From assembly GCF_004365875.1 (NCBI RefSeq), contig NZ_SODF01000001.1, positions 2,170,001 through 2,234,000 of the forward strand: a stretch of DNA of 64,000 nt, read 5' to 3'. Source of the DNA: Kribbella kalugense (GTDB lineage: Bacteria > Actinomycetota > Actinomycetes > Propionibacteriales > Kribbellaceae). The notes under the pieces are model-generated. The model did no database searches, had not been told where the DNA came from, and saw only the letters and a list, made by a program, of their open reading frames with translations. The translations under genes and the position numbers were made by a program. Position 1 is the first letter of the stretch; each line of letters opens with the position of its first letter. This document shows positions 50,465 through 55,040 of this stretch, one piece after another.

Positions 50465-51646
50465 TCAGGCGCCGAGGACGTGCTGGATGCCTGCTACCGC
50501 GGCGCCGCGGGCCCAGTCGGTGAAGGTCAGCGGGGTGGCGACGACCTCAAGGGCGCAGCGCTGCGTCTCCAACGGTCCTGGCCGGAGTCGATCGTCGATC
50601 GCCGCTTGCAGAGCGGGCGAGTCGGTGAAGGCGGCGATGTCCTCGCCGGCCAGCACGATGCAGGTCGTCTGGAGCGCCCCGGCGAACGACGCCACGACGT
50701 GTCCGAGTGCCCGGGCGGCGTCGTCGAGCCGACGAGCGGCGGCCGGGTCGCCGCCGGACCGGGCCCGGACCAGGTCGGTCAGGGTGACCGGGTGCTTGGC
50801 GGCCGCCGAGGCGTGGCGCTCGAGATCCTCCCGGTTGAGGTAGGCCGCCACGCACCCCCGGTGGCCGAGGGTGCAGGTAGGCCCGCTGCCGTCGACAGGC
50901 GAGTGCGCCAGCAGATGACCGTTGTCGATCAGTTCCTCGACGGCGACGCCCTCCCTGACCACGCCCACACCGAGGCCCGCGCCGACGGTGACGATGCCGA
51001 AGGTCGAGTGGGTGCGGCCGGCACCGAACCAGAGTTGCTCGCGAGCCAGCGCCGTGACGTCGTTGGTGACAATGACCGGCAGACCACTCCGGTCCTGCAG
51101 CGGTGTGCCGAGATCGACGTCCCGCCAGCCGAGGAACGTCCCCTCGCGTACGACCGAACGATCCGCGATCACCCCACCGACAGCCACCCCGATGCCGTCA
51201 ACGCTCGGCACCTTCGGCGCGAGCCGGTTCGCCAGCTGGGCGATCAGCTTCACGGTGCCCGCGACCGGCACGACGCCGTCCTCCTCGGGCCGGGGCAGGG
51301 CCGCCCTCGTGGTCGCTTTGACGTCGCCGAACAGGTCGCAGACGACGCCGTACGCGGTGTCGCCGGTGAGCTTGACGCCGACGACGTGCCGGGCACTGGG
51401 CACCGCGGTCAGGACGTGCCGGGGGCGGCCGATCGCTGCTGCCGACTCGGGGTCCTCGGTCGCGATGCCGCCACCGATGAGAGCCCGGGCCAACCGGGAC
51501 ATCGACGCGTAGGAGAGGTTGAGCCGGTCGCCCAGGTCGCCGCGGGTCGCCGGCCCGTGGATCAGCAACTGGCGCGTGACAGCCAGCTGTCCCGCGGTCA
51601 GCCCTCGCTCACCGGCTGACCGTTCAGAAGCGCCCGTCACTGCCAT
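50465..51646 (-). CDS. ROK-family transcriptional repressor (NagC/XylR type)
   Basis: Codes for 393 residues. The N-terminal winged helix (QLAVTRQLLIHGPATRGDLGDRLNLSYASMSRLARALIGGG) is followed by a ROK kinase-like fold (GIVTVGAGLGVGVV, LGHRGCVAAYLN). The cysteine/histidine zinc motif of ROK proteins is recognisable in CTLGHRGC. These regulators sense sugars or sugar phosphates. It is divergent from a sugar ABC operon, with a ROK-like inverted repeat and a CRP-type site between them, so it probably represses that operon and itself. Confidence 0.92.
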   Translation of the reverse strand: MAVTGASERSAGERGLTAGQLAVTRQLLIHGPATRGDLGDRLNLSYASMSRLARALIGGGIATEDPESAAAIGRPRHVLTAVPSARHVVGVKLTGDTAYGVVCDLFGDVKATTRAALPRPEEDGVVPVAGTVKLIAQLANRLAPKVPSVDGIGVAVGGVIADRSVVREGTFLGWRDVDLGTPLQDRSGLPVIVTNDVTALAREQLWFGAGRTHSTFGIVTVGAGLGVGVVREGVAVEELIDNGHLLAHSPVDGSGPTCTLGHRGCVAAYLNREDLERHASAAAKHPVTLTDLVRARSGGDPAAARRLDDAARALGHVVASFAGALQTTCIVLAGEDIAAFTDSPALQAAIDDRLRPGPLETQRCALEVVATPLTFTDWARGAAVAGIQHVLGA

Positions 51647-51669
51647 CCGCCCAGCTTACAAAGCGGCCC

Positions 51670-51685
51670 TGTGACCCTTGTCACA
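51670..51685. promoter_or_regulatory. CRP-type site TGTGA-N6-TCACA
   Basis: TGTGA and TCACA are separated by six bases; the flanking CTGTGAC/GTCACAG symmetry adds one more pair each side. This is a perfect match to the consensus of CRP/FNR regulators, including mycobacterial and Streptomyces Crp. It overlaps the -35 of the sugar operon promoter. Confidence 0.7.
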
Positions 51686-51706
51686 GTCGCCAGCATGGCT
51701 TATTTT
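51678..51706 (+). promoter_or_regulatory. Promoter of the sugar ABC operon
   Basis: TTGTCA (51678-51683) and TATTTT (51701-51706) are exactly 17 bases apart. The start of transcription would be near 51713. A GGAGAG ribosome-binding site lies before the ATG at 51766. Confidence 0.65.
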
Positions 51707-51726
51707 CAATCTGACTGTAAATAGCC
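51697..51726. promoter_or_regulatory. NagC/Mlc-like inverted repeat, probable ROK operator
   Basis: GGCTTATTTTCA and TGTAAATAGCC form an imperfect inverted repeat; the TTATTTT/AAATA arms resemble the NagC/Mlc consensus. It covers the -10 and start of the sugar operon promoter, so binding by the divergent ROK protein would block transcription. Confidence 0.65.
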
Positions 51727-51765
51727 CCGGACCCCGGCGACCAGTCCCCGGGCGAAGGAGAGCTA

Positions 51766-52686
51766 ATGGTCACCACGACCTCGATCCGGTCGGCGAAGTC
51801 CGGCCGCGCCAGGAACGGCCCGCGCGACGACACCCGTCTGGCGCTGCTGTTCATCCTTCCCGCACTGATCGGCTTCGGCGTCTTCCTGGTCTGGCCGACC
51901 TTGCGCGGGATCTACCTGAGCTTCACCAAGTTCAACCTGCTCACGCCGCCGCAGTTCAACGGCCTGGACAACTACGTCCGGATGGTCCAGGACCCGGTGT
52001 TCTGGAACGCGTTGAAGGTGACGCTCTACTACGTGATCCTGAACATCGGCCTCCAGACGGTACTGGCGCTGGTGATCGCGGTGATGATGCAGCGGCTGAC
52101 GCAGCGGACCTGGCTGCGCGGCATCGTGCTGACGCCGTTCCTGGTCTCGAACGTGGTGGCCGCGATGGTCTTCCTCTGGATCCTCGACTACCAGCTCGGC
52201 ATCGGCAACACGATCCTGGCCGCCGTCGGCGTCGACCGGATCCCGTTCCTGTCGTCCAGCTCGTGGGTCATCCCAACGATCGCGTTCATCAACGTCTGGC
52301 GGCATGTCGGCTACACCGCGCTGCTGATCTTCGCCGGGTTGCAGACGATCCCGGAGACCGTCTACGAGGCCGGCCGGATCGACGGTGCGAGCGAGGTCCG
52401 GATGTTCCGCAGCATCACGGTGCCGCTGCTGCGGCCGATCCTCTCGCTGGTGCTGATCATCACCGTGGTCGGTTCCTTCCAGGTCTTCGACACGGTGGCG
52501 ATCGCGACCCGCGGCGGACCCGTCGACTCGTCCCGGGTACTGCAGTTCTACATCTACGACGTCGCGTTCGGCCGCTTCCAGTTCGGCTACGCGTCGGCCA
52601 TGTCGGTGGCGCTGCTCGCCGTCCTGGTGGTCGTCACATTCCTCCAGTACCGGCTCACCCGGGCCGAGACCTCAGATCTGGCGTGA
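51766..52686 (+). CDS. Carbohydrate ABC transporter permease (MalF/UgpA type)
   Basis: Codes for 306 residues with six membrane helices. The EAA loop that docks the ATPase is YEAGRIDGASEVRMFRSITVPLL. The N-terminal block FILPALIGFGVFLVWPTLRGIYLSFTKFN is typical of CUT1 sugar permeases. GGAGAG lies just upstream of the ATG. It is the first gene of an operon of two permeases and a binding protein; no ATPase gene is present. Confidence 0.93.
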   Translation: MVTTTSIRSAKSGRARNGPRDDTRLALLFILPALIGFGVFLVWPTLRGIYLSFTKFNLLTPPQFNGLDNYVRMVQDPVFWNALKVTLYYVILNIGLQTVLALVIAVMMQRLTQRTWLRGIVLTPFLVSNVVAAMVFLWILDYQLGIGNTILAAVGVDRIPFLSSSSWVIPTIAFINVWRHVGYTALLIFAGLQTIPETVYEAGRIDGASEVRMFRSITVPLLRPILSLVLIITVVGSFQVFDTVAIATRGGPVDSSRVLQFYIYDVAFGRFQFGYASAMSVALLAVLVVVTFLQYRLTRAETSDLA

Positions 52687-52693
52687 GGGCAGC

Positions 52694-53647
52694 ATGGCTA
52701 CCGACACCACCCCGACGGTCGCGACCGTCGGCCCCGTCGCCGTACGACGCGACACACCCCCAGCAGAGCCGCGCCGGCTGAACTTCGGCCGCGCGCTCGC
52801 CTGGAGCTTCATGATCCTCGTGATCCTGGTCAGTCTGTTCCCCTTCTACTGGATGCTGCGCACCGCCCTGTCCAGCAACAACGCCCTGTACGCCGGATCC
52901 GGCAGCCTGCTCCCGGTGCAGACCTCGGCCGGCGGATTCGAACGGGTCTTCGGCCTGCAGACCGGTCAGGAGGCGATCGACGCCGGTGGCGCCGGGCAGG
53001 CGATCAACTTCTGGCGCTACCTGTTCAACTCCGTCGTCGTCTCGACGCTCATCACCGCCGGGCAGGTGTTCTTCTCCGCGATGGCGGCGTACGCGTTCGC
53101 CCGGCTGCAGTGGAAGCACCGCGAGAAGGTCTTCGCGTTCTTCCTGGCCGGCCTGATGATCCCCGCGATCTTCACCCTGCTGCCGAACTTCGTGCTGATC
53201 AAGCAACTCGGTCTGGTCGACACCCTGCTCGGGATCGCGCTGCCGACGATGTTCATGACGCCGTTCGCGGTGTTCTTCCTGCGCCAGTTCTTCCTGGGTA
53301 TCTCCCGCGAGGTGGAAGAGGCCGCACTGATGGACGGCGCCTCCAAGGTGCGGGTGTTCTTCCGCCTGATCATCCCGATGTCGCTCGCGCCGATCACGAC
53401 GCTGGCGATCCTGACCTACATCGCCTCCTGGAACGAGTATTTCTGGGCGCTGATGGTCAGCTACACCGATAAGTCGCGCGTCCTCACCGTCGCGCTCGGC
53501 GTCTTCAAGTCCCAGACGCCGCAGACCGGCCCCGACTGGTCCGGCCTGATGGCCGCGACCCTCGTCGCCGCCCTACCGATGCTGGTGCTGTTCATGCTGT
53601 TCGCGAAACGCATCGTCAACTCCATCGGCTTCAGCGGGATCAAGTGA
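52694..53647 (+). CDS. Carbohydrate ABC transporter permease (MalG/UgpE type)
   Basis: Codes for 317 residues. After a roughly 30-residue N-terminal tail, six helices form the permease. The EAA loop is EEAALMDGASKVRVFFRLIIPMSLAPI. The start FPFYWMLRTALSSNNALY is characteristic of the second CUT1 permease. It starts seven bases after the first permease's stop and pairs with it to form the channel. Confidence 0.93.
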   Translation: MATDTTPTVATVGPVAVRRDTPPAEPRRLNFGRALAWSFMILVILVSLFPFYWMLRTALSSNNALYAGSGSLLPVQTSAGGFERVFGLQTGQEAIDAGGAGQAINFWRYLFNSVVVSTLITAGQVFFSAMAAYAFARLQWKHREKVFAFFLAGLMIPAIFTLLPNFVLIKQLGLVDTLLGIALPTMFMTPFAVFFLRQFFLGISREVEEAALMDGASKVRVFFRLIIPMSLAPITTLAILTYIASWNEYFWALMVSYTDKSRVLTVALGVFKSQTPQTGPDWSGLMAATLVAALPMLVLFMLFAKRIVNSIGFSGIK

Positions 53648-53657
53648 GGAGCCCGGC

Positions 53658-55040
53658 ATGATCACCTTCCGGCAACGGATCCGCACCGCGGCGGTCGCCT
53701 TGGTCACCGTGACGGCCTTGGCGGCCTGTGGCGGTACGACCGGCAGCAGCGCGAACGGCACCATCGAGTACTGGCTGTGGGACTCGGCCCAGCAGCCGGG
53801 CTACCAGAAGTGCGCCGACGCGTTCGCCAAGGCCAACCCCGGTCTGAAGATCCACATCTCGCAGTACGGCTGGGACGCGTACTGGTCAAAGCTCACCGCC
53901 GGCTTCATCGCCGACACCGCACCCGACGTCTTCACCGACCACCTGTCGAAGTTCGCCCAGTACGTCGATCTGAAGGTCCTCCGTCCCCTCGACGACCTCG
54001 GCCCGACCAGCGACATCAAGGACGGCGATTATCAGCAAGGCCTGGCGGAGTTGTGGAAGGGCCAGGACGGCAAGCGGTACGGCGCCCCGAAGGACTGGGA
54101 CACGATTGCCATCTTCTACGACGCTGCCGCGCTCAAGGCGGGCGGCGTGGATCCCGCCGAGTTGCAGAACCTCACCTGGAATCCCCAGGACGGCGGCACG
54201 TTCGAGAAGCTCGTCGCACATCTGACCATCGACGAGAAGGGGGTCCGGGGCGACCAGCCGGGCTTCGACAAGACGCACGTCAAGACGCACGGCCTCGCCT
54301 CCGAGGGATCCGGTGGCGGTGGCTGGGGTCAGACGCAGTGGTCGGCGTTCGCCGGCAGCGCGGGCTGGCAGGCCACCGACAAGAACCCCTGGGGCACGAA
54401 GTTCAACCTGGACCAGCCGGCTCTCCAGGACACCCTGAGCTGGTACTTCGGTCTCGTACAGAAGGGCTACATGCCCAGCTACGAAGAGATCGGCGGCGCC
54501 AGTGCGATCGGCACGGACAAGCAGATCCAGTCCGGTACGGCGGCTCTCGGCCTCAGTGGGTCGTGGATGATCTCCAGCTTCACCAAGCTCACCGACTCCG
54601 CCGGCAAGAAGCTGGACATCGGGCTGGCGCCGACCCCGATCGGGCCGAGCGGCAAGCGTGCGTCGATGTTCAACGGCCTGGCCGACTCGGTCACCACACT
54701 GTCGAAGCAGCCCGAGAACGCCGCCAAGTGGGTCGCGTTCCTGTCCGGGGCGGAGTGCCAGAACATCATCGGCCAGTCCGGCGTCGTCTTCCCGGCCCGG
54801 CCGGCCGGCACGCAGCTGGCGATCGCCTTCAACAAGTCCGAACGCAAGCTCGATGTCACCCCGTTCACCCGGCAGGTCGTGGACAAGACGACGTTCCTGT
54901 TCCCGGTGACGACGAACGCGGCCGACATCGCGGCGCTGATGGCACCACGTTTCGACGCCGTCTACATCGGCAGCTCGCCGATCAGCTCGCTGACGAAGCT
55001 CAACACCCAGCTCGACGACCTGTTCAAAGTCGCCCAGTAG
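53658..55040 (+). CDS. Sugar ABC transporter substrate-binding lipoprotein
   Basis: Codes for 460 residues. A signal peptide ends in the lipobox LAAC near residue 25. The mature part has the SBP family-1 pattern (IEYWLWDSAQQPGYQKCADAFAKANPGLKI, GGWGQTQWSAFAG, SWYFGLVQKGYMPSYEEIGG, ENAAKWVAFLSG). It captures a mono- or oligosaccharide for the two permeases. It is the last gene of the operon, an unusual place, since this gene is more often first. The 3' end converges with hisH 16 bases away. Confidence 0.92.
   Translation: MITFRQRIRTAAVALVTVTALAACGGTTGSSANGTIEYWLWDSAQQPGYQKCADAFAKANPGLKIHISQYGWDAYWSKLTAGFIADTAPDVFTDHLSKFAQYVDLKVLRPLDDLGPTSDIKDGDYQQGLAELWKGQDGKRYGAPKDWDTIAIFYDAAALKAGGVDPAELQNLTWNPQDGGTFEKLVAHLTIDEKGVRGDQPGFDKTHVKTHGLASEGSGGGGWGQTQWSAFAGSAGWQATDKNPWGTKFNLDQPALQDTLSWYFGLVQKGYMPSYEEIGGASAIGTDKQIQSGTAALGLSGSWMISSFTKLTDSAGKKLDIGLAPTPIGPSGKRASMFNGLADSVTTLSKQPENAAKWVAFLSGAECQNIIGQSGVVFPARPAGTQLAIAFNKSERKLDVTPFTRQVVDKTTFLFPVTTNAADIAALMAPRFDAVYIGSSPISSLTKLNTQLDDLFKVAQ

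Follow-up and report, generated by a model that had tools for sequence, protein, structure and literature searches.

Sugar importers are usually activated by Crp, and ROK proteins typically carry the motif CxCGxxGC. Operators of ROK regulators are generally T-rich on the left and A-rich on the right (PMC4856308), and RafR of Bifidobacterium breve is cited as a ROK regulator of raffinose use (PMC4856308, PMC4746261). For Mycobacterium tuberculosis CRP, sites near the transcription start are associated with repression and upstream sites with activation, and the sites cluster at -60 to -40 and at +1 to +20 (PMC4117774). At the ldhA promoter of Corynebacterium glutamicum, SugR lies on the -10, LldR on the -35 and GlxR upstream, where it activates (PMC7999487).

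In the present study we describe a control region from an 8.3-Mb Kribbella genome that shares traits with each of these systems. A ROK regulator gene and a divergent sugar ABC operon are separated by an intergenic spacer of 119 bases, with start codons at 51646 (minus strand) and 51766 (plus strand). Like Mlc and NagC of Escherichia coli, the regulator is a ROK protein with an N-terminal DNA-binding part, and like ROK sites generally, its predicted operator is T-rich on the left and A-rich on the right (PMC4856308). Unlike Mlc and NagC, it scores far below the equivalog cut-offs, appears to have one private operator per genome in place of a multi-gene regulon, and would recognize an operator with the centre CAATC-W-GATTG. 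With RafR, likened here by description and not by sequence, it would share a tie to alpha-galactoside uptake genes, but the Kribbella locus holds importer genes only. The Crp protein of this genome is a close full-length relative of M. tuberculosis CRP (Rv3676) and C. glutamicum GlxR with the same TGTGA-N6-TCACA consensus, whereas the Crp-type site described here lies at -35.5, on the -35 element, and not at the -60 to -40 or +1 to +20 positions of the M. tuberculosis sites (PMC4117774). As at ldhA, two regulators would be stacked on the -10 and -35 of one promoter, the Kribbella sites being predicted; at ldhA, however, a specific repressor covers the -35 and GlxR binds upstream, while here the Crp-type site itself is on the -35. 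The features are listed below in coordinates of the window, which is the whole 64-kb stretch of DNA that was analysed.

50465..51646, minus strand: gene for a ROK-family transcriptional regulator (393 aa), divergent to the ABC operon (Pfam ROK, 1.3e-27)
51653..51658, minus strand: TAAGCT, the probable -10 for leaderless transcription of the ROK gene, 6 bases upstream of the start codon (TAnnnT pattern, 20/20 related loci)
51670..51685, no strand assigned: Crp-type dyad TGTGACCCTTGTCACA, overlapping the ABC -35, with the conserved core GTGAC-N4-GTCAC at 51671-51684 (direct reading and comparison of 20 promoters)
51678..51683, plus strand: -35 hexamer TTGTCA of the ABC operon promoter (CTTG at constant operator distance, 20/20; match in the promoter scan)
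51701..51706, plus strand: -10 hexamer TATTTT of the ABC operon promoter, predicted start ~51713 (17-bp spacing; TATTTT or TAGTTT in 20/20)
51701..51723, no strand assigned: predicted ROK operator TATTTTCAATCTGACTGTAAATA, over the -10 and start point, in a 25-base frame at 51700-51724 (kept in 20/20; co-occurrence with the ROK gene across genomes)
51766..52686, plus strand: ABC sugar permease gene 1 (BPD_transp_1; UgpA/MalF-like models)
52694..53647, plus strand: ABC sugar permease gene 2 (BPD_transp_1; UgpE/MalG-like models)
53658..55040, plus strand: ABC solute-binding lipoprotein gene, the last gene of the operon here (SBP_bac_1; the closest solved structures are UspC-type sugar-binding proteins)

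The importer promoter and the predicted ROK operator

The original prediction proposed an operon promoter formed by TTGTCA (51678-51683) and TATTTT (51701-51706), and direct reading of the sequence gives exactly these hexamers with 17 bases between them. The pair is the sole promoter-like match in the 601 bases covered by a promoter scan, in which shuffled sequences gave 0.1. Related promoters, 20 in all, were compared from Kribbella, Actinoplanes/Paractinoplanes, Winogradskya, Virgisporangium and Knoellia. The -35 (as CTTG), the 17-bp spacing, the -10 and the operator are kept in every one of them, with CTTG at a constant distance from TTA[TG]TTTCA, and the proposed promoter thereby gains comparative support. 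All eight Kribbella genomes that bear the ROK gene retain GTGA-n-CCTTGTCAC, the 17 bases from TTGTCA to TATTTT, and the operator, and the arrangement is absent from a more distant Kineosporia relative (54 percent identity).

An inverted repeat covering the -10 had also been proposed. Such a repeat is present and does lie over the -10, but its earlier frame, 51697-51726, was dropped because the best dyad is at 51701-51723. This palindrome reads TATTTTCAATC-T-GACTGTAAATA, with its centre at 51712 and 9/11 pairs matching, and in all 20 related promoters the -10 sits within a palindrome of the form TTATTTTCAATC-W-GATTGAAAATAA.

As a palindrome alone the Kribbella site is modest, with P ~0.012 for 9/11 pairs in a 119-base stretch of the same composition and 36 equally good 23-mers within the window; a perfect 7-4-7 inverted repeat in the spacer has P ~0.008. 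What raises the operator above chance is its conservation in 20/20 promoters together with its co-occurrence with the ROK gene. ROK orthologs (74-100 percent identity, next best matches 40 percent) are found in 8 of 38 Kribbella genomes, and a search of these genomes allowing up to three mismatches returned exactly one operator copy in each of the eight and none in the 30 genomes without the gene. This one-copy pattern points to the palindrome, T-rich on the left, A-rich on the right and tied to a ROK gene, being the private operator of the ROK protein, which would make the regulator a local one. Control by the divergent ROK protein, as originally suggested, is in this way backed by sequence comparison at the level of both promoters (20/20) and genomes (8/8 vs 0/30). 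A class-wide search of 395 genomes yielded no additional close ROK ortholog. The palindromes of A. subtropicus and P. polyasparticus match in 12/12 pairs, the latter with symmetric changes on both sides (TTAG...CTAA).

The ROK protein, its promoter and the probable sugar

The regulator matches the ROK domain (PF00480) with 97.6 bits, against a cut-off of 22.9. Mlc and NagC are its best NCBIfam models, yet it reaches only 84.7 of 530 and 79.7 of 650 bits, respectively, far under the equivalog cut-offs. Its N-terminal region has no separate Pfam HTH match; from residue 23 on the protein aligns with full-length ROK repressors including Mlc (PDB 3bp8, 9srt), and this alignment takes in most of the N-terminal region. 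Where the zinc motif CxCGxxGC would be expected the protein has CTLGHRGC; despite this variant, the profile match supports its assignment to the ROK domain. Close ROK relatives carry C-x-[LI]-GHxGC, a variant of the motif in which the second Cys is replaced.

A TAnnnT element lies 6-7 bases upstream of the start codon in 20/20 related ROK loci. This is a leaderless-type signature, and the ROK mRNA is probably leaderless throughout the group. The element and the start codon lie here within 51644-51658 (minus strand) and at the corresponding places in loci L011-L017 and L047-L063; some members have a GTG start there. Relative to the ROK start, the centre of the Crp-type dyad is at -31.5 here and at about -23 in most relatives, so that Crp would crowd the ROK promoter too. 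Both the crowding of a leaderless-type ROK promoter by the dyad and the GH36 alpha-galactosidase in the operons of relatives, described below, go beyond the original prediction.

The importer operon (51766-55040) encodes two permeases and a binding protein and contains no ATPase gene; the importer is probably energized by a shared sugar-ABC ATPase whose gene lies elsewhere. A GH36 alpha-galactosidase gene directly follows the homologous operon in P. durhamensis, A. aureus, Actinoplanes KI2 and A. subtropicus. An alpha-galactosidase likewise follows those operons next to related ROK genes that begin with the solute-binding gene, and more distant ROK relatives adjoin one, but none adjoins the Kribbella operon. 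Because the operons of relatives end in this enzyme, the substrate of the importer is probably an alpha-galactoside, although in Kribbella, with no adjacent enzyme, the sugar could differ.

Two ABC importers that are only distantly related are found behind the same type of ROK operator, and an alpha-galactosidase comes after each; by all appearances an importer has been replaced while the ROK regulator was kept. An ABC importer followed by GH36 occurs at L047, L049, L050 and L051, and a solute-binding-protein-first ABC importer followed by GH36 at L052, L053, L056, L060 and L063.

The Crp-type dyad and the Crp protein

A perfect TGTGA-N6-TCACA overlapping the -35 was correctly placed at 51670-51685 by the original prediction, and within the 64 kb it is the sole match with fewer than two mismatches. 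Comparison supports a Crp-type site, with the core GTGA-N6-TCAC present in 12/20 promoters (eight Kribbella, A. aureus, A. subtropicus and two Winogradskya), but only this genome and its closest relative (G032) have the perfect TGTGA. Since the outer T is kept in these 2/20 only, the site appears better written GTGAC-N4-GTCAC. In one promoter, that of P. durhamensis, the dyad is half-present with a degenerate left arm, and in seven it is missing (Actinoplanes KI2, Virgisporangium, Knoellia and four solute-binding-first operons of Paractinoplanes/Actinoplanes). These seven still keep the -35, the -10 and the operator. The dyad, absent where all else is retained, is thus apparently an evolutionary add-on to a ROK-controlled promoter and not an essential part of it, and the promoter, whose 17-bp form persists in the same seven, would not depend on Crp. 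About three changes on the ROK tree are needed to account for the dyad.

The right arm of the dyad is confounded with the -35, as TTGTCA is part of both, and because of this double role only the left arm constitutes independent evidence. The left arm, which the -35 does not need, is retained in Kribbella, two Actinoplanes and two Winogradskya promoters; GTGA at a fixed place has a chance of ~0.003. The arms also co-occur, with at least GTG[AG] on the left in 13/14 promoters that have the right arm and in 0/6 that lack it (Fisher 2e-4, uncorrected for kinship). The dyad lies 8-9 bp farther from the ROK promoter in four Kribbella genomes, G000, G032, G029 and G023, than in G008, G013 and G037, and despite this shift the spacing of its arms and its distance to the ABC -10 are constant. 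This unchanged geometry indicates that the dyad belongs with the ABC promoter and not with the ROK promoter. A reading of the left arm as part of the ROK promoter was rejected for the same reason, the dyad having retained its form as its distance from that promoter varied.

A Crp homologue, on which the original prediction depended, is encoded in the genome (L040, at G000:C2:1684953). It combines cNMP-binding and Crp HTH domains; its alignment with the structures of M. tuberculosis CRP and GlxR spans the entire protein (E about 1e-73), and its stretch VGASRETVNKALADF is identical to that in M. tuberculosis CRP. The genome further encodes, at L041, another Crp/Fnr-type protein, which has an RE...R helix, as well as five predicted cyclase-type domains that may make cAMP. 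The site count that had been suggested as a check gave nine exact TGTGA-N6-TCACA boxes in the genome, against ~1.8 expected from base composition, most of them between ORFs or at ORF edges, and across the 38 Kribbella genomes there are 336 Crp boxes vs 16 for the reversed pattern. Near the exact boxes L003, L004, L006, L007 and L009 (G000), the neighbours guessed from ORF starts are a LysR-type gene, a peroxiredoxin-like neighbourhood, a threonine-dehydratase-like gene, a dehydrogenase neighbourhood and a flavin-oxidoreductase/MarR-like pair. In the 38 genomes a TAnnnT 15 bases after an exact Crp box is found nowhere except here and in the G032 ortholog, and a TAnnnT at the class-II spacing of 21 bases is found nowhere at all. 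With the box-to--10 spacing shared by these two promoters only, the genus gives no calibration of the Crp effect, and our literature search found no paper on Crp targets in Kribbella.

Proposed stacked control and its alternatives

On balance, we consider it probable that ROK repression and hindrance by Crp are combined at a compact divergent control region, a model for which we infer protein binding, the start sites, the identity of the sugar and whether Crp represses or activates. The ROK protein would bind 51701-51723, over the ABC -10 and start point, and repress the importer; with a start at ~51713 the operator would extend from about -12 to +11, so that its occupation should block polymerase. 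The repressor would be released by a sugar, probably an alpha-galactoside or one of its products. A Crp dimer would bind GTGAC-N4-GTCAC on the ABC -35 (centre -35.5), adjoining the -10 of the leaderless ROK transcript, and polymerases at the ABC and ROK promoters would compete. Bound Crp would most likely hinder RNA polymerase, so that the importer and the ROK gene would both be damped when Crp is active.

The original prediction had cautioned that a site at -35.5 may repress, and this is the better reading, since the dyad covers the -35; occlusion is more likely there than activation. Relative to the start predicted from the conserved -10, the site is at -35.5 and not near -41.5, the position of class II Crp sites. 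Because -35.5 also falls in neither of the M. tuberculosis CRP clusters, we infer repression from steric overlap. The more specific proposal that at high cAMP Crp directly represses the shared -35 region, lowering both importer and ROK protein, with the dyad as an add-on gained or lost on an otherwise fixed ROK-controlled promoter, is tentative, and we regard it as plausible but short of probable. If true, Crp repression here would be the reverse of classical catabolite control.

Activation of the operon by Crp under the same ROK switch, either from a downstream start that places the dyad at ~-41.5 or through an unusual contact at -35.5, would agree with the role that Crp usually has at sugar importers, but we consider it unlikely. 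A centre at -41.5 would require CAATCT (51707-51712) as the -10, a hexamer in which the operator constrains the A and the last T; it is, however, poor and very weak as a -10, the 17-bp promoter with its -10 at 51701 is kept in 20/20 promoters including the seven without the dyad, and no exact Crp box of the genus stands at class-II spacing to a TAnnnT. It is improbable that a protein other than Crp binds the dyad, whether another Crp/Fnr protein, for which L041 with its RE...R helix would be a candidate, or an unrelated dimer, or that the dyad serves the ROK promoter. The outer T of the Crp consensus is indeed unconserved, and in most lineages the dyad lies directly against the ROK -10, yet the core is identical to the inner portion of that consensus, Crp boxes are enriched across the genus, and the shape of the dyad is constant despite the 8-9 bp change in its distance to the ROK promoter. 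A chance overlap around the conserved -35, with ROK as sole controller, would fit the identity of right arm and -35 and the 7/20 promoters that lack the dyad, but is highly improbable given that the left arm GTGA (chance ~0.003 per fixed place) recurs in Kribbella, Actinoplanes and Winogradskya.

The control region is a real and well conserved, but ordinary, type of gene switch, in which the position of the Crp site is modestly unusual. Read as ROK repression with hindrance by Crp, it would provide a clean, testable case of how large-genome actinobacteria stack local (ROK) and global (Crp) control on a single promoter. It also yields a well-defined predicted ROK operator and a natural series of promoters that either carry or lack the Crp dyad.
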